In this document: one piece after another, positions 4,994 through 50,208 of the stretch
How positions within the stretch are numbered: position 1 is the first letter of the stretch
Layout: every line of letters begins with the position of its first letter
The notes under the pieces: model-generated
What the model saw: the letters and a program-made list of their open reading frames with translations, nothing else
What the model was told of the DNA's origin: nothing
Databases searched by the model: none
Made by a program: the position numbers and the translations under genes
NCBI GenBank assembly: GCA_027491315.1
Contig: JAIXWL010000001.1
Span: 496,001 to 560,000, forward strand
Origin: Cytophagaceae bacterium
GTDB taxonomy: Bacteria; Bacteroidota; Bacteroidia; Cytophagales; Spirosomataceae
Length of the DNA stretch: 64,000 bases
Reading direction: 5' to 3'

Positions 4994-5069
4994 AGATTTG
5001 TCAATTTTTCAAAAATTGACAAATCTAAGTCAACAAATCTACGGCGACAATTCGAGCTTGACAAATCCT
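4994..5069. repeat. Intergenic palindromic repeat, TTGNCA family (copy 1)
   Basis: A perfect 33-base palindrome (4994-5026) has 16-base arms AGATTTGTCAATTTTT and its complement around a single C. It is followed by degenerate partial copies (CAACAAATCT, CTTGACAAATCC) up to the end of the serine hydrolase gene. It lies between two minus-strand genes, downstream of 5068-6333 and upstream of 3980-4981. The arm carries TTGTCA at the position shared by the other copies in this window. Confidence 0.85.
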
Positions 5070-14206: not shown

Positions 14207-15282
14207 TATCTTGGAAGGGTATAATAGAGACCAACACCAATACCGCTAAAAATGATATTAGGTAACCATACGGCTAGTAGCGGAGGCATTCCACCACCTT
14301 CGGCGATACCTTTGCTCATCATGAAAAAGAGGATGTAGACAAAGGCCAAGGAGAAACCTAAAGCAATTTGAAAGCCCACTCCTCCACGAGATTTACGTGC
14401 AGAAACTAAAAACCCAATGATGGTTAAAATGATTACAGAGAAAGGGTTGGCAAAACGAAGGTATTTTTCAATCAAGAAAATTTCAATTCCATCGGCACCT
14501 CTTGAACGAACTAACTGTATATGTTTTTCTAATTCAGGTAGGGTAAAGGTTTCATGTAACAAGTGTTTATTCTGGAAATCTTTTGGAAAAAGATTAAGCG
14601 TGGTATCTATTTTTGTGCCAAATACGATACCTGTTTTACCAGCCTCCAAGGTTCTAATTCGGTAGTCATGAATGGTCCATTTTTTGCGAACAGAATCCCA
14701 GGAGATTCGGTCAGACATCAGCTTTTGTTTGATTTCATTGTCAGCGATTCTCTCTAAACTGAAGCGATAACCTGTGTTAGTGCTATTGTCGTAACTTTCA
14801 ATATAGGCATAGATTTCGGGTGCAATTTTGATATGAACATCTCGCTTATCAAAGAAATAGGTATTGTTGATGTATTTATGTTCAAAAGGTACTCTGATTT
14901 TATTGGCATTGGGGACAATCCATCCAATCATAATGAAAGTGCCAATGGCAACAATGCCAGATCCAATTAAATAGGGACGCATGAGTCGTGTGAAACTCAC
15001 TCCAGAGCTTAAAATAGCGATGATTTCTGTTTTAGCCGCCAGGTTAGCGGTAAAGAAAACGGTGGCAATAAAAACCATTAATGGACTGATGTAATTAGCC
15101 CAATAGGGTATAAAATTCAGGTAGTAGTCGAAAAGGATTTCATTCAATGGAGCTTGTTTACGGATAAAATCATCGATTTTTTCGGTGTAATCAATCACCA
15201 TGACAATCAATACAATCAGAAAAACAGCGAAAACATAGGTTTTCAGAAATTTTTTCAGAATGTATAGATCCAGAATTTTCAT
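14206..15282 (-). CDS. LptF/LptG (YjgP/YjgQ) family permease
   Basis: The 358-residue protein starts MKILDLYILKKFLKTYVFAV, the usual opening of the LptF/G family, with transmembrane helices at the N- and C-terminal ends and a roughly 170-residue periplasmic beta domain between. These permeases work with LptB to extract lipopolysaccharide from the inner membrane. Bacteroidota usually encode two separate paralogues, and which one this is cannot be decided. Length is normal. It overlaps both neighbours by one base. Confidence 0.9.
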   Translation of the reverse strand: MKILDLYILKKFLKTYVFAVFLIVLIVMVIDYTEKIDDFIRKQAPLNEILFDYYLNFIPYWANYISPLMVFIATVFFTANLAAKTEIIAILSSGVSFTRLMRPYLIGSGIVAIGTFIMIGWIVPNANKIRVPFEHKYINNTYFFDKRDVHIKIAPEIYAYIESYDNSTNTGYRFSLERIADNEIKQKLMSDRISWDSVRKKWTIHDYRIRTLEAGKTGIVFGTKIDTTLNLFPKDFQNKHLLHETFTLPELEKHIQLVRSRGADGIEIFLIEKYLRFANPFSVIILTIIGFLVSARKSRGGVGFQIALGFSLAFVYILFFMMSKGIAEGGGMPPLLAVWLPNIIFSGIGVGLYYTLPR

Positions 15283-15680
15283 TAGTTAGCCTTTGAAGAA
15301 CCTGCTGCCTCAGGTTTGTATTTAACCATGGAAAACAAGTGAATGAAGATCACACGAGCCATTCGGAAATTGAACGGAACCATGAGTAAAGAAACTAATG
15401 TAATCGGAATGATATAGCCTTCGGCTGAAGGGTCGCCAAAGAAATTGTAAATAATGACACCCCCAACAATCATAATTCCCACTGTGAAAGCATAAGAAAT
15501 ATACATGGCTCCAAAAAAGAAACCAGGCTCTACTTCATAGCGTAAACCACAAGAAGGACAATGCTCGTGCATTTCACTGAACTTGAAAATATTCCACCAT
15601 TTATGAGTAAAAATTCGGCCTTCATGACATTGAGGGCAACGCGCCTTGACAGCGGCTCCTAATTTGGATGGATTCGACAT
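15282..15680 (-). CDS. DUF983 domain membrane protein with zinc-ribbon-like cysteines
   Basis: The 132-residue protein starts at 15680 (MSNPSKLGAAVKARC), the usual opening of DUF983 proteins; an upstream in-frame ATG at 15719 adds 13 codons without likeness. Two CxxC pairs (CPQC, CPSC) flank HKWW and HEHC, suggesting a small metal site, followed by EPGFFFGAMYISY and two transmembrane helices. Function is unknown. It is the first gene of the run 15680-13322. Confidence 0.85.
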   Translation of the reverse strand: MSNPSKLGAAVKARCPQCHEGRIFTHKWWNIFKFSEMHEHCPSCGLRYEVEPGFFFGAMYISYAFTVGIMIVGGVIIYNFFGDPSAEGYIIPITLVSLLMVPFNFRMARVIFIHLFSMVKYKPEAAGSSKAN

Positions 15681-15759
15681 ATTTTCTAGTTTAAAAAGAC
15701 AAAGGTAAAGAAAATTCAAGGATTAATTTGAAAGCGGTGGGGCATCTTAGGGGAATTTG

Positions 15760-15767
15760 TATCTTTG
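15760..15767 (+). promoter_or_regulatory. Likely -7 element for the cytochrome-B-like gene
   Basis: TATCTTTG matches TAnnTTTG and lies 24 bases before the ATG at 15792. No -33 element is obvious at the usual distance. It would start the run 15792-17653. Confidence 0.45.
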
Positions 15768-15791
15768 TAAATAACTAAACTCTACCATATT

Positions 15792-16229
15792 ATGTATGCT
15801 ATTTTATTGAATGTACACTCGTATTTACGTTGGCTAGTTCTCATCTTAGGAATTCTAGCAATTTACCGAGGGTTTAAAGGAGCTCAATCAGGGGCACCAT
15901 TTTCAGAGTCTGATAGAAAATCAGGTTTATTTTTCTTGATTTCGGTTCATACTCAATTGTTGATTGGCTTGTTATTGTATTTTGTATTTAGTCCAATTAC
16001 CCAAGCGGCATTTGCTGATTTTGGAGCGGCGATGAAGGATCCTGCTATCCGATTAATTGCGGTTGAACATATCACCGTTAATATTTTGGCAGTTATTTTA
16101 GTAACAGTAGCTTATTCAAAAAACAAAAAAGCGATTGCTGATGCTCAAAAACATAAAAATGCTTGGTTGTTATTTGGTATAGCTTTGTTGTTGATTTTAA
16201 GTCGTATTCCTTGGGCTCGTTTAGCTTAG
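15792..16229 (+). CDS. Four-helix membrane protein, cytochrome-B-like Bacteroidota family
   Basis: The 145-residue protein has four hydrophobic helices. Histidines sit near or within them (His9 in LNVHSYLRWLV, His53 in ISVHTQLLIG, one in AVEHITVNILAV), which could bind haem. Short proteins with this pattern are widespread in Bacteroidota and are often labelled cytochrome B. Haem binding is inference from the histidines. It is followed one base later by a HAD phosphatase gene, with which it probably shares a transcript. Confidence 0.7.
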   Translation: MYAILLNVHSYLRWLVLILGILAIYRGFKGAQSGAPFSESDRKSGLFFLISVHTQLLIGLLLYFVFSPITQAAFADFGAAMKDPAIRLIAVEHITVNILAVILVTVAYSKNKKAIADAQKHKNAWLLFGIALLLILSRIPWARLA

Positions 16230-17653: not shown

Positions 17654-17668
17654 AGGATACTTTTGCAG

Positions 17669-17716
17669 AGATTTGTCAACTTTAGAAAGTTGACAAATCT
17701 TAAAGTTGACAAATCT
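17669..17716. repeat. Intergenic palindromic repeat, TTGNCA family (copy 2)
   Basis: A perfect 32-base palindrome (17669-17700) has arms AGATTTGTCAACTTT and its complement around AG, followed by a second right half-arm (AAAGTTGACAAATCT) to 17716. It sits between the convergent aldo/keto reductase and rnr genes. Confidence 0.85.
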
Positions 17717-17740
17717 CTCCCAGTCCTAAGAAGAAGCAAC

Positions 17741-37855: not shown

Positions 37856-38168
37856 TATCAGTATTTTATCATGTAATTGGTAGTTTTCTCATGATTCATT
37901 TCGGGAGATCTGTTTAGTTTTGTCAACTTGAATTATTCAACTTGGTGATTTGTCTAATTTGAATTGTCAACGTTAGATTTGTCAACTTTTCAAAAGTTGA
38001 CAAATCTGTAGGATGATAAATCAGTAGGATGACAAATCTATAGGACAAGGTCAGTGAGACAACAATAGTAGGATCTAGTTAGGACTAAGTTGGTCTCACA
38101 GGCACCTTTTAGATCCAATTAGGCCCCACTAGAATGGAGTTGACAAATTCAAAATTAAATGCGGATAC
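37856..38168. repeat. Gene-free 313 bases with palindromic TTGNCA repeat (copy 5) and degenerate half-copies
   Basis: A perfect 33-base palindrome (37975-38007, arms AGATTTGTCAACTTTT and its complement around C) is embedded in degenerate relatives: TTTTGTCAACTTG and GATTTGTC before it, and GTAGGATGATAAATC / GTAGGATGACAAATC after it. The last 100 bases before hemN hold no clear signal. It looks like the oldest or most expanded copy of the family in this window. Confidence 0.8.
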
Positions 38169-39620: not shown

Positions 39621-40124
39621 ATGGGTGTCAAGATTTTGCGAAGTCAACGATTATATGTCAAGGAGCTAGCTCTAGATGATGCCCCCTTTATTCTGGACCT
39701 ACTCAATACTTCTGGATTTTTGGAATTTATCGGTGATCGCGGGGTACGGAGTTTAGAAGAAGCAAAAGCATTTTGTGTCAAATTAAGGGATAATCCAGCC
39801 ATTCATTATCAGGTGGTATTTCTCCACTCAACTCACATTCCCCTTGGAATCATTTCTCTCGTTCAAAGAGATTATTTGCCTCAACCGGATATTGGTTTTG
39901 CGTTTTTACCCTTACACGAGGGAATGGGATATGCCTATGAAGCAGCTAAGCTGGTATTGGACGATTATTTTGCTTGCCACAAGGCACCTATTTTCGCTAC
40001 TACCATGGAAAATAATGTTCGTTCCATTAGTCTCTTATTTCGTTTAGGCCTAACTTTTGAACGCAGTTTAGAAAGAGATCAACAAATACTTCATCTTTAC
40101 AAAAAAGATCCATGGAATCATTAG
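39621..40124 (+). CDS. GNAT family N-acetyltransferase (RimJ/RimL-like)
   Basis: The 167-residue protein starts best at the ATG at 39621 (MGVKILRSQRLYVKEL); an in-frame TTG at 39591 gives a longer form. It has the RimJ/RimL-type opening, PDIGFAFLPLHEGMGYAYEAAKLVLDD for the acetyl-CoA loop, and NNVRSISLLFRLGLTFE for the late motif. It acetylates an amine, perhaps a protein N-terminus; the target is unknown. It overlaps the next gene by 13 bases. Confidence 0.85.
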   Translation: MGVKILRSQRLYVKELALDDAPFILDLLNTSGFLEFIGDRGVRSLEEAKAFCVKLRDNPAIHYQVVFLHSTHIPLGIISLVQRDYLPQPDIGFAFLPLHEGMGYAYEAAKLVLDDYFACHKAPIFATTMENNVRSISLLFRLGLTFERSLERDQQILHLYKKDPWNH

Positions 40125-40648
40125 AGAAGCAAATCGAACAATTAGAAAAAAACCTGGCCTATATGCAGGTAAGGAATGAACAAATCTCTAAAGGATCTGT
40201 TGGCTGGCATATTGAGCATAGTTTACTAGTCATTATTAGTATCGTCAGTGCTTTGAAAAAATCGGATATCGATACTTATCGCTGGGTATTTAATTGGAAA
40301 AGAGCTTGGGTGTTTTTTACCCAAAAATTTCCTCGAGGGCGAGTGAAAGCGCCTTTGATAGTTGATCCTTCATATAACAATCAAATAAACGATTCGATAC
40401 AAGCGAATCCGATACATGTATCGGATCAAGAATCGGATCAACGATTATCGGATATTCAAGCTCAGATTGCTAAGGTCTACCAATTAGTAGAAGAGATGAA
40501 AATGATACCCCCCAACGCCTATTTCCATCATTTTATTTTTGGAGATTTGAACTTGGCTGATACGCATTATTTTTTGAGAATTCATACCCACCATCACCTA
40601 AAAATCATGGCCGATTTAATCAATGATTATACCAAAACTGGTCAATAA
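40112..40648 (+). CDS. DinB-superfamily / DUF1569-like protein with an in-frame palindromic insert
   Basis: The 178-residue protein has GWHIEHSLLVI near the start and HHFIFGDLNLADTHYFLRIHTHHHLK at the end (split across two helices). The histidines are spaced as in DinB-like four-helix metal proteins of the DUF1569 group. Between them residues about 94-115 are encoded by a palindromic repeat (40391-40453) giving NPIHVSD, QESDQ and RLSD. The insert is polar and unlike the family core. Thiol transferase or hydrolase activity is possible but unproven. Its 3' end overlaps the convergent pentapeptide gene by 33 bases. Confidence 0.75.
   Translation: MESLEKQIEQLEKNLAYMQVRNEQISKGSVGWHIEHSLLVIISIVSALKKSDIDTYRWVFNWKRAWVFFTQKFPRGRVKAPLIVDPSYNNQINDSIQANPIHVSDQESDQRLSDIQAQIAKVYQLVEEMKMIPPNAYFHHFIFGDLNLADTHYFLRIHTHHHLKIMADLINDYTKTGQ
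40391..40453. repeat. In-frame palindromic repeat element inside the DinB-like gene
   Basis: A perfect 20-base palindrome ATCCGATACATGTATCGGAT occupies 40407-40426. A left half-arm variant (ATTCGATACA) lies 15 bases upstream at 40392, and two more right half-arms (ATCGGAT) start at 40432 and 40447. All spacings are multiples of three, so the frame is kept and every right arm reads Ser-Asp. It is related to the element at 42824-42931. Confidence 0.85.
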
Positions 40649-41182
40649 TCCTGCCAAACTATTTTTGGAAAATTTGGCTTTTTTGATCCGATTGCTCTGT
40701 GGATTTATATCAAAATGAAAGGAGGTTCGGAAGTCGGCTTTTTCTAAATTAGTTTGATCAAATTGTGCATTCAAAAAATCACAATCTTCAAAATTTGCCT
40801 CACTTAAATTAGCCTGGCTAAAATCAACTTCATGCAATGAGCAATGCTGAAATTGAGCCTTTTTCATTTGTCTTTGATAGAAGGACGAAAGATTTAAAAA
40901 ACAGTTTTCAAAATGTACTTCAAACAAAAATGGATTGGCATATTCGAAATGTAAACCTTGTAAACGACAATCCTTGAAGGATACATTTTGCCACTTGGTA
41001 TTTCCTATTTTTACTAAGCTTAAGTTGCAATCATGGAACTGGCAATCGATGAAAGAATAATCCGATAAATCTTGTTGGGCCAAGTCACATTGCTTAAAAA
41101 TACAAGCTTCATATTCTCCCTTGGGGAGGCTTTCAGTCGTGTAGTTTTTTTTCTCAAAAATTTGTTGAAATTGGTTGACCAT
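40616..41182 (-). CDS. Pentapeptide repeat protein (Qnr/McbG-like)
   Basis: The 188-residue protein is made of A(D/N)LxX-type pentapeptide repeats from about residue 25 to 165 (CDLAQQDLSDYSFIDC, FSQANLSEANFEDCDF), which form a right-handed quadrilateral beta-helix. A non-repeat segment near residue 85 and a short C-terminal helix resemble McbG/Qnr layouts that mimic DNA and protect gyrase, but a general scaffold is equally possible. Quinolone resistance cannot be concluded. Its 3' end overlaps the convergent DinB-like gene by 33 bases. Confidence 0.88.
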   Translation of the reverse strand: MVNQFQQIFEKKNYTTESLPKGEYEACIFKQCDLAQQDLSDYSFIDCQFHDCNLSLVKIGNTKWQNVSFKDCRLQGLHFEYANPFLFEVHFENCFLNLSSFYQRQMKKAQFQHCSLHEVDFSQANLSEANFEDCDFLNAQFDQTNLEKADFRTSFHFDINPQSNRIKKAKFSKNSLAGLLTSFGIIID

Positions 41183-41312
41183 GATGTAGTAATTGAAATA
41201 GCTAATTTAGGAAAATTTTAACCATCTTTCTATTTGGATTCATCAATCTTAAGGCTAGGGGATTCAGAAAAAGATTGTAAATTAGGCCAGATTTAAAACC
41301 TATTTCCTCCTC

Positions 41313-42032
41313 ATGAAAAAGCTAATACTCGCCTTTTTGGCTTGGACATTTTTCTTGCAGTCCAATGCCGCCTTTGCCCAAAATTCATTGGAAGGTTCAT
41401 GGTCCAATTCGCAAGGCGATGTTTCAACTTGGATTTTAGTGACAGATCAAATTATTAGTATCACTGAATTTGAAACAAATAGTCATAAATTGATTTCCAC
41501 CATGGGCGGAACTTATAAATCAAAGCATAAAGAATTGGAAATTTTGCAAGAATGGAATTCAAAAGATTCTCTTCAAGTAGGTCAAAAAAAACGGCTTTCA
41601 TACCAAATTAAAAAAGGCCAATTGCTGCTAGACCAACAAGTGTTCATTCCTAACGAAAAGGGAGAGTCAGGTAAAATGAAGGGGGCTTGGATTATAGTAG
41701 GAAATTTTTCAGGTGAAGTTCTTTCACGTAGAAACAACCCATTTTTTCCTAGAAGAACCATGAAAATCCATACAGGAAAAGCCTTTCAATGGATAGCTTA
41801 CAACGTTCAAACCAAACAATTTTTTGGTACAGGAGGAGGTTATTACAACACACAAGGAAATACCTATACAGAAGAGATTGTATTTTTTACCAAGGCCAGT
41901 TCTAGTATTGGCAAAAAGCTACCATTTGAGTTTCAGATACAAGACGGAATTTGGCGGCATAAAGGTCAAAAGTCTACGGGAGGACCCATGGATGAGGCTT
42001 GGTCCAGAAGGGAATTATTGGACCATAAATAA
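41313..42032 (+). CDS. Secreted protein of unknown function
   Basis: The 239-residue protein has a signal peptide ending in AFAQ (residue 23). The mature part starts SLEGSWSNSQGD and is rich in beta-strand-forming residues, as in lipocalin-like or membrane-or-secreted proteins of Cytophagales; I do not recognise a named family with confidence. It is followed nine bases later by the DUF2231/cytochrome gene and is probably the first gene of that operon (41313-49838). Confidence 0.75.
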   Translation: MKKLILAFLAWTFFLQSNAAFAQNSLEGSWSNSQGDVSTWILVTDQIISITEFETNSHKLISTMGGTYKSKHKELEILQEWNSKDSLQVGQKKRLSYQIKKGQLLLDQQVFIPNEKGESGKMKGAWIIVGNFSGEVLSRRNNPFFPRRTMKIHTGKAFQWIAYNVQTKQFFGTGGGYYNTQGNTYTEEIVFFTKASSSIGKKLPFEFQIQDGIWRHKGQKSTGGPMDEAWSRRELLDHK

Positions 42033-42041
42033 TTGCCAAAC

Positions 42042-43460
42042 ATGATGGAGTTGCTCGGCCATTTACATCCCTTTTTAGTGCATTTTCCCATTGGGATATT
42101 GGTCATAGCTTGTGTCATGATTTGGATACAGGCGATTCGAAAAGTAGACTACCAGTCTTCCATTACTACCTTAGTTTTATTAGGGGCAATGGCGGCTATC
42201 CTAGCCTCCATTTCAGGGTATATTTTATCAATTTCAGGTGATTATGAAGCTTCCCAAGTGGCCTTACACCAATGGTGGGGAATAGGAACAAGTTTTGGGG
42301 CTGTTATTCTTTATTTCTTTCAAGCCTATCAAAAAATTATTAGTCTCTTTTTGTTCTTAGCACTTGCCATCACAGGTCATTTAGGAGGAGAGCTGACCTA
42401 TGGAGCAAACTATTTATTTGAACGGAAAAAGACAAGCTCTACTACCCAGACAAAGCTTCAGTCATTGGACTCTGCCCAACAAAAAATTACGATAGATACC
42501 AGTGTTCAGGTAGTGAATTCAGCGAAGTATTTTCCTTTTCAAGATGAGGTCCTACCGATTCTGAAAAGCCATTGTTTTCAATGTCATTCCAGCAAAAAGC
42601 AAAAAGGGAAATTGCGCTTAGATACAGAAGCATTTATCAAAAAAGGAGGTAAAGAAGGTAAAATATTGTGGGAAGGTAATCCATTAAAAAGTCATTTATA
42701 TAGCTATTTGATATTACCCGAAGACGATGATTTACACATGCCTCCCTCAGGTAAAAAACAGCTTACTTCAAGACAGATTGCCATCATCCGTAGATGGATT
42801 GAAATTGGTGCCCCGTTTGGAGTATATCCGATGCATGCAACTGCATATCCGATGCATGCATCGGATATATCAGGGCATGCATCGGATCTTTTTTCGCATG
42901 CATCGGATATATCAGGGCATGCATCGGATATACCAAAAACCATGGAGCTAGCAGCAGCCGAGCCAGCAGATATTTTGGAAGTAAAAGCACATGGTTTGAG
43001 TGTTAGCCCTGCCGCAAGCCACCCAGCGGGTTTAAGTCTGAATTTTGTCAATGTCAAAAATCTTGACCCACCAATTTGGCAAGCTGCCAAAAAAATCCAA
43101 CACAATGTTTTAGTCATGAAATTGACTAAACGGAAAGATATTCAAGTGGAGGAATTGTTGAATTTTACCCATCTCCAACAATTGAATCTGGAACAAAGTA
43201 ATGTTCAAGATAAAGATTTAGAGCGTTTAGTTCAATTGCCGCATTTAGAACAGTTAAATCTCTATGGCACAGCTATTTCTGACCAAGGTATAAAGGCATT
43301 GACTGCTATGAAGGCATTAAAAGTTCTTTATATTTGGCAAAGTAAGCTCAGCCAAGAAGGCTTAGTGGCTTTGAAAACTGCCCGACCTGATCTTACCATT
43401 GTTGAAGGAAAAATCAGTTTTAGTCCACCCGATACAAATCGATTGAAAGTAATAAAATAG
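42042..43460 (+). CDS. DUF2231 membrane anchor fused to a planctomycete-type cytochrome c and LRR-like domain
   Basis: The 472-residue protein starts at the ATG at 42042 (or 42045); the in-frame TTG at 42033 is less likely. Residues 1-125 hold four transmembrane helices of the DUF2231 type (LLGHLHPFLVHFPIG). Then a PSCyt1 domain has haem motif CFQCH and MPPSGKKQL, with Met as a likely axial ligand. Residues about 262-299 are a low-complexity insert from palindromic 21-base repeats (HASDISG units). The end has three leucine-rich-like repeats (LQQLNLEQSNVQDKDLE). It probably accepts electrons at the periplasmic face. PSD1 follows three bases later. Confidence 0.87.
   Translation: MMELLGHLHPFLVHFPIGILVIACVMIWIQAIRKVDYQSSITTLVLLGAMAAILASISGYILSISGDYEASQVALHQWWGIGTSFGAVILYFFQAYQKIISLFLFLALAITGHLGGELTYGANYLFERKKTSSTTQTKLQSLDSAQQKITIDTSVQVVNSAKYFPFQDEVLPILKSHCFQCHSSKKQKGKLRLDTEAFIKKGGKEGKILWEGNPLKSHLYSYLILPEDDDLHMPPSGKKQLTSRQIAIIRRWIEIGAPFGVYPMHATAYPMHASDISGHASDLFSHASDISGHASDIPKTMELAAAEPADILEVKAHGLSVSPAASHPAGLSLNFVNVKNLDPPIWQAAKKIQHNVLVMKLTKRKDIQVEELLNFTHLQQLNLEQSNVQDKDLERLVQLPHLEQLNLYGTAISDQGIKALTAMKALKVLYIWQSKLSQEGLVALKTARPDLTIVEGKISFSPPDTNRLKVIK
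42824..42931. repeat. In-frame 21-base palindromic repeat array inside the cytochrome gene
   Basis: Left arms ATATCCGATGCATGC start at 42824 and 42845 and right arms with the core GCATGCATCGGAT start at 42854, 42875, 42896 and 42917; every step within a type is 21 bases. Bases 42845-42868 form a perfect 24-base palindrome with core ATCCGATGCATGCATCGGAT. The right arms read His-Ala-Ser-Asp in frame, giving four 7-residue units (HASDISG, HASDLFS, HASDISG, HASDIPK). Left and right arms could pair in the mRNA. Confidence 0.92.
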
Positions 43461-49838: not shown

Positions 49839-50208
49839 TTATTAGGGGTTAGGGTTTAGAATGTAGAATGTAGAATGAAGAGTGAAGAATGTCTTGTCCT
49901 GATATAGGTTGACCGTTTAAGTATTTCTGGCAAATTCAAATTTTGGGATTTTATGGTCAAATTAATAAGGCAATTTTACTCGTATATTACATACGAGGGT
50001 AAATTTTCTCAAATTTTGCCCTCGTTCCCTAGATAAGAGTAAAAATTACCCTCGTTTGTTCCCATAAATTTTAGGGAATCTATTTGATATCATTTTAGAA
50101 ACAGAGTGATTTACCTGTAGGCAAATGATCAAATGTGGCTTTTGACCATTCTATTTAGGGAAAAGATACCACAAATTCTACATTCTACATTTTTCATTCT
50201 ACATTCTA
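49839..50208. other. Gene-free 370 bases bounded by inverted GAATGTAGAATG arms
   Basis: Left edge (49858-49890) reads GAATGTAGAATGTAGAATGA with a degenerate continuation. The right edge (50173-50209) reads ATTCTACATTCTACAT and CATTCTACATTCTA, its complement. Inside, ACGAGGGTAAATTTT and AAAAATTACCCTCGT form a second inverted pair around 50003-50063. No open frame with family likeness was found. It lies between convergent genes and could be a small non-autonomous element or a decayed one. Confidence 0.6.

Follow-up and report, generated by a model that had tools for sequence, protein, structure and literature searches.

The question raised by the window studied here, a 64,000-nucleotide (nt) stretch of the genome of a freshwater Aquirufa (2.92 Mb, 17 contigs), is how two unrelated neighboring genes came to carry nearly the same palindrome in the same reading frame. 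One encodes a DinB-like protein of 178 amino acids (40112..40648) and the other a PSCyt1 cytochrome/LRR protein of 475 amino acids (42033..43460); both genes, and all of the array features given below for them, lie on the forward strand. In each gene the palindrome is accompanied by further copies of its half-motifs, so that it forms a small array, located in the central linker of the DinB-like protein and in the linker that joins the cytochrome part of the second to its LRR part. A sequence-only reading of the window had proposed a mobile coding element similar to those of Rickettsia. The explanation that we favor, with a probability of roughly 0.55, attributes both the origin and the upkeep of these local palindrome arrays to replication template switching in sequence that tolerates change.

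The DinB-like gene contains a perfect 20-nt palindrome, ATCCGATACATGTATCGGAT, at 40407..40426, as located by sequence match. An arm search placed a degenerate left arm, GATTCGATACA, ahead of it (40391..40401), and analysis of arm spacing placed the right arm ATCGGAT 12 nt further on (40432..40438) and again after another 15 nt (40447..40453), giving one exact and one degenerate left arm and three right arms. In the cytochrome gene, the 20-nt palindrome at 42847–42866 proved by palindrome search to extend to a perfect central palindrome of 24 nt, ATATCCGATGCATGCATCGGATAT (42845..42868), preceded by an outer left arm with its spacer (TATATCCGATGCATGCAACTGC, 42823..42844; arm search). Here the arms number two on the left and four on the right, spaced 21 nt, and the array spans 110 nt, whereas array sizes are otherwise 20–65 nt. 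Alignment of its four 21-nt units (42854..42937) showed that the 13-nt arms are all identical, whereas the 8-nt spacers partly differ: spacers 1 and 3 are identical, spacer 4 matches both at 5 of 8 positions, and the spacer of unit 2 matches those of units 1, 3, and 4 at only 2, 2, and 1 of 8. In both arrays, left arms (ATCCGAT) precede the center and right arms (ATCGGAT) come after it. The two 20-mers are mismatched solely at positions 8 and 13, which pair with each other (A-T versus G-C), and both are read in the same frame, as NPIHVSD in the DinB-like protein and YPMHASD in the cytochrome protein. In shuffles of the window, 0.02 matches are expected when up to three mismatches are allowed; the window palindromes are real and beyond chance. 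The sequence-only reading thus held for both palindromes, their frame, and the compensating change, and its two left arms per gene are exact in the cytochrome array, but the second is degenerate in the DinB array. Its DinB-like label corresponds to a Pfam match (DinB_2, E 0.0037) below the curated cut-off; domain search of the cytochrome/LRR protein also gave a weak DUF2231 membrane match, again below cut-off.

When the whole host genome was searched with up to three mismatches, the palindrome was found at three loci, namely the linkers of the DinB-like and cytochrome/LRR genes and the spacer that follows a PhyH-family gene. This third locus lies between the PhyH-family gene and a convergent gene; the left end of its array overlaps the PhyH stop codon, and the rest is largely non-coding. 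Protein matches assign the host to Aquirufa, and the close relatives used for comparison were Aquirufa beregesia (G024), A. ecclesiirivi (G033), A. nivalisilvae (G020), A. aurantiipilula (G017), and A. rosea (G005). A search of 59 genomes with up to two mismatches returned nine places in five genomes, every one at the three known loci and seven of them perfect (four of six in the relatives). The five genomes are that of the window and the first four relatives, not A. rosea, which bears out the restriction to this lineage; the search for further copies that had been suggested yielded a third locus, but not many. A wider pattern applied to six genomes gave 21 places. Eleven of these are at the three loci (seven perfect), with three copies each in the host and A. 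ecclesiirivi, two each in A. aurantiipilula and A. nivalisilvae, and one in A. beregesia. Of the 10 off-locus places, none was perfect by eye; one is in A. rosea, which has no on-locus copy. The half-motif CATGYATCGGAT occurs at 39 places in 38 genomes of the genus, 16 at the three loci and 23 elsewhere. The latter comprise 22 lone arms and a single place (L063) with an opposite 7-mer ∼60 nt away.

To place these numbers against background, 461,310 bases were surveyed, consisting of the window and 20 stretches, several of them chosen for holding known copies. Six perfect palindromes of at least 20 nt were found, three of them of the ATCCGAT/ATCGGAT motif, compared with about one per Markov sequence. 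Two-sided arm clusters numbered 15 (versus 5, 5, and 1), comprising three of this motif, seven TTGACA hairpins, and five others. Inverted repeats with arms of at least 12 nt lie inside open reading frames (ORFs) of at least 150 amino acids in 7 of 46 cases in the host genome sample, 3 of 37 in A. nivalisilvae, and 2 of 28 in a distant Aquirufa (G007); the array loci are thus not the only places with coding inverted repeats. Among those 12 repeats (1.26 Mb, three genomes), the longest arm is that of the window cytochrome array (17 nt, others at most 14).

In three of the five copies with two mismatches, the mismatches sit at partner positions and are complementary (∼5e-5 if random); in the other two, both from A. 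ecclesiirivi, they are not paired. The compensating change seen in the window extends to 4 of 10 pairs over nine distinct sequences (shuffled mean 1.9, 9 of 500 shuffles as high), and covariation reached 0.300 versus 0.137 (0 of 500 shuffles as high), falling to at most 0.065 when the partners were slid. Arms differ between loci of one genome (ATCCGATA, ATCCGATG, and ATCTGATG). In A. aurantiipilula the DinB linker forms a perfect inverted repeat, two 30-nt arms flanking 5 nt, in which the outer unit differs from the inner at four positions that are private to it and mirrored in the perfect arms. The cytochrome linker of the same species holds a 29-nt string of A. beregesia, but solely in the form of its exact reverse complement (29/29). 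The 19-nt core of this block, scored in the cytochrome linkers of four species, matches inverted at 19/19 in A. aurantiipilula and in direct orientation at 19/19 in A. beregesia, 16/19 in A. nivalisilvae, and 14/19 in A. ecclesiirivi. Arms that change together and a segment inverted between them, as in this linker, are the marks by which template-switch hot spots are recognized.

A replication mechanism could produce these features in a few steps. Once a short palindrome is present, the nascent strand would fold onto itself or switch to the opposite strand, and one arm would be copied from the other, so that both sides change together; the segment between the arms could be inverted, and slippage would add tandem copies of arms. 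Of the variants arising in the two genes, only those leaving the frame open would survive, a selection that may have shaped the arm spacings (21, 12, and 15 nt in the coding arrays of the window, 19 nt in its PhyH spacer). The arrays themselves would have no function, and the agent would be a polymerase switching templates. Published work describes related cases. In yeast genes, template switching between inverted repeats results in arm homogenization and spacer inversion (PMC8604942); it has been proposed as a source of RNA stems with paired changes, in a study whose authors regard the evidence that short stems are maintained as circumstantial (PMC8794818), and of coding palindromes in nematomorph mitochondria (PMC6649704). 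A literature search covering titles and the beginnings of abstracts, with subscription journals mostly outside it, gave no account of palindromes in Aquirufa. Paired changes are usually taken as proof of a selected structure, but here they accompany the inversion of a block, in protein linkers of low conservation, and point to the mutation process itself. Five species with the same loci offer a natural test of how palindromes in a bacterial chromosome originate and persist, and perhaps of how they move.

Several observations weigh against template switching. The evidence is comparative, and no mutation was watched happening. The aligned copies are related and were found by a palindromic pattern, so percentages of pairing lean toward symmetry; further pair types are not in excess (5 versus 5.5 in shuffles, 467 of 500 as high), and imperfect palindromes make up 4 of the 11 aligned copies, namely the A. 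nivalisilvae DinB copy and every copy from A. ecclesiirivi (three). The 14/19 direct match in A. ecclesiirivi does not exceed the highest score among 2000 shuffles of another sequence, and for the PhyH array the preference for a flip is only weak (30.5 versus 27.5). Arm spacings in the non-coding PhyH array of A. aurantiipilula (15 and 15 nt) are also divisible by three, which makes the argument from frame weak. Template switching leaves unexplained both the central ATGCATGCAT, identical in 7 of 7 aligned cytochrome and PhyH copies, and the identity over 28 nt of two unrelated loci, the window cytochrome array and the PhyH spacer of A. nivalisilvae. Predicted folds are uneven as well. Fold z-scores, calculated for loci other than the A. 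rosea cytochrome linker, the broken DinB-like gene of A. beregesia, and the PhyH spacers of A. nivalisilvae and A. aurantiipilula, were −8.95 for the cytochrome array and −2.12 for the DinB array of the window (two controls within the cytochrome gene, −0.39 and −0.04), and −10.2 (DinB) and −5.3 for the linkers of A. aurantiipilula. Unremarkable values were obtained for the A. ecclesiirivi cytochrome (−0.87) and A. nivalisilvae DinB (0.01) linkers, and the A. nivalisilvae cytochrome linker (−2.05) was exceeded by one of its own controls (−2.88). Single flanking controls were as low as −4.17 (A. aurantiipilula DinB), −2.97, −2.88, and −2.57, and with controls reaching −4.17 weak z-scores should not be taken as structure.

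The stronger of these folds, together with the paired changes, would suit an mRNA hairpin selected for an action in the transcript, such as stability or translation pausing. We consider this very improbable: the symmetry reaches the very center, which an RNA loop does not need, some orthologues fold weakly, one of the three loci is mostly outside genes, and inversion of a block is not expected where selection acts base by base. Selection at the DNA level is also conceivable, with the arrays as half-sites of a sequence-specific binding site (operator- or partition-like) favored at three places. Conserved 13-nt arms beside one diverged spacer, a CATG center in 10 of 11 aligned copies, and a motif common to different loci are what such a site would predict, but the arms of one genome are unlike from locus to locus, substitutions are paired, and copies have been lost or have decayed in several species, and this explanation, too, appears distinctly unlikely. 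A parS-like site was considered for the arrays; the palindrome AATGTTTCACGTGAAACATT, found twice in G007 (L134, at 15664 and 17245) and which we take to be parS-like, has another sequence.

The 28 nt common to two loci call for more than local change. Sixty shuffled pairs reached at most 11 identical nt, and the ends GTATATCC or GGATATAC are present at both the cytochrome and PhyH loci. Template switching within a locus cannot yield 28 shared nt. At least one transfer of a palindrome from one locus to another is therefore probable, and a single such event may account for the shared sequence; the alternative is selection of a binding site. The core of the DinB palindrome differs (TACATGTA), and this palindrome may have arisen independently and then come to resemble the others. 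The shared nt and ends could also reflect a miniature mobile palindrome of ∼24–28 nt, like the Rickettsia palindromic elements, that entered as many as three loci in the common ancestor of the five species, later decaying or expanding at each site, an account with which the lack of arrays in A. rosea, branching before the five, and the 20 additional residues in the window DinB linker relative to that of A. rosea also agree. It is nonetheless unlikely, as no fourth locus was found in four relatives, the off-locus half-motifs are almost all lone arms, no target duplication was noticed, and the cytochrome linker is nearly equal in length in the window and A. rosea. Viral contigs searched with the exact 20-mer gave no matches, nor did plasmids and phages searched with the 126-nt array, and a phage or plasmid origin was rejected on this basis. 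A dispersed mobile element was rejected as the principal explanation because whole-genome searches give three loci only; with one of these largely non-coding and no clean empty site identified, the proposal of a Rickettsia-like coding element is mostly unsupported. A tentative and rather doubtful suggestion would join the two processes: the palindrome of 24–28 nt may be a minimal self-copying DNA element without a gene of its own, with template switching keeping its symmetry and rarely copying it to a new locus. If this were true, mobility and maintenance would be one process.

The history of the three loci was examined using a tree built from PhyH, DUF1553, and cytochrome DNA without the linker (A. 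ecclesiirivi entered without DUF1553, and outgroups were represented by PhyH only). A. rosea branches first (support 0.957), then the host genome, then the other four species (1.000). Neither palindrome nor array was found at any of the three loci in A. rosea, and no array was found in 16 DinB linkers (of 25 loci) or 13 PhyH spacers of more distant Aquirufa; the PhyH loci examined were 19 of 30, these 13 included, and distant cytochrome linkers (L200–L209) lay outside the comparison. The arrays therefore probably arose before the window lineage split from the other four species. Decay since then is seen in several places. In A. beregesia, the PhyH palindrome is missing, although the spacer keeps a possible arm remnant, and the DinB-like gene is broken, with stops and its middle lost (L019, about 2370–2600). 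In A. nivalisilvae the DinB copy is degenerate and the cytochrome linker has no clear copy. The PhyH spacer of A. rosea has a terminator-like hairpin instead (z −5.08). Linker lengths bear on whether the arrays are inserts, as the sequence-only reading had it. The window cytochrome linker has 64 residues, the others 59, 59, 56, and 44, and that of palindrome-free A. rosea 60, which does not indicate an insert. The window DinB linker is longer, at 45 residues versus 25 in A. rosea, but the others have 34, 27, and 23, the shortest being that of A. ecclesiirivi with its imperfect palindrome. Apart from this one difference, lengths with and without an array overlap, and they fit linkers that were replaced and resized better than a fixed insert.

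The arrays resemble several known systems but differ from each in some respects. Template-switch mutation in Saccharomyces cerevisiae genes and RNA stems shares homogenization of arms with both-side changes, spacer inversion, and occurrence in coding genes (PMC8604942, PMC8794818), but the Aquirufa arrays have multiple arms, are kept at the same loci across species, and share a motif between loci. Nematomorph mitochondria likewise have perfect inverted repeats in coding genes, gained and lost between species; those palindromes are numerous, reach 284 bp, and lie in conserved protein regions (PMC6649704), whereas the Aquirufa arrays occupy variable linkers at three loci of a bacterial chromosome. 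Rickettsia palindromic elements are also palindromic and in frame in unrelated genes, but are about 150 bp long and form ten families, with 44 integrations in genes of R. conorii (PMC10969869). In Aquirufa, in-frame placement in unrelated genes applies to two of three loci, the third being the spacer that overlaps the PhyH stop codon, and no dispersal was found in the whole genome. PARCELs share tandem coding repeats with dyad symmetry but are built on a 25-residue amphipathic motif, occur in ORFs lacking assigned functions, many of them membrane-targeted, and are horizontally spread (PMC2996958); the period of the Aquirufa arrays is 7 residues (21 nt) or less.

REP/RAYT hairpins are also short palindromes and are present in the same genome, but the hairpin beside the RAYT-like ORF of the host has another sequence and a 3-nt center, so membership of the arrays in this system was rejected. 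Neither ATCGGAT nor ATCCGAT occurs within the 3.3-kb loci of two Y1_Tnp genes. The RAYT-like ORF (L086, 15164–15796, minus strand) has a variant of the hairpin AGATTTGTCAACTTTTnAAAAGTTGACAAATCT on both sides (15077–15963). It matches NCBIfam REP_Tyr_transpos at 49.8 bits (E 3.2e-13), short of the cut-off of 80, has no Pfam match, and is not among the Y1_Tnp matches; the arrangement suggests a REP/RAYT system. A light-regulator operator, considered as a candidate for the TTGACA hairpins, was dropped once this ORF was found between two hairpins. Intergenic AGATTTGTCAACTTTTnAAAAGTTGACAAATCT hairpins lie in the window at 4994–5026, 17667–17718, and 37975–38007, several with extra side arms, and show both-side changes at their inner positions. 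Forward matches whose outer arms are exact number 19 in the host genome, 17–18 in the four relatives (two overlapping pairs counted twice), and seven in A. rosea; none was found in the other 53 of the 59 genomes.

Other repeats of comparable form were seen in passing. The hairpin family AACGCTGTCAAGGTTTnAAACCTTGACAGCGTT occurs at L097 (11082–11281), L099 (1241–1442), and L162 (about 2416), twice as pairs 167–169 nt apart, and one copy is near a Y1_Tnp gene. In the window, 7-nt tandem repeats form an inverted pair (TAGAATG/ATTCTAC; 49857–49892 and 50175–50208), and a similar foldback is present in A. nivalisilvae (L104). A CTTAGTC/GACTAAG foldback array with hairpin-like spacers in G007 (L130, 16649–16798) is similar in layout to the arrays described here and unrelated in sequence.

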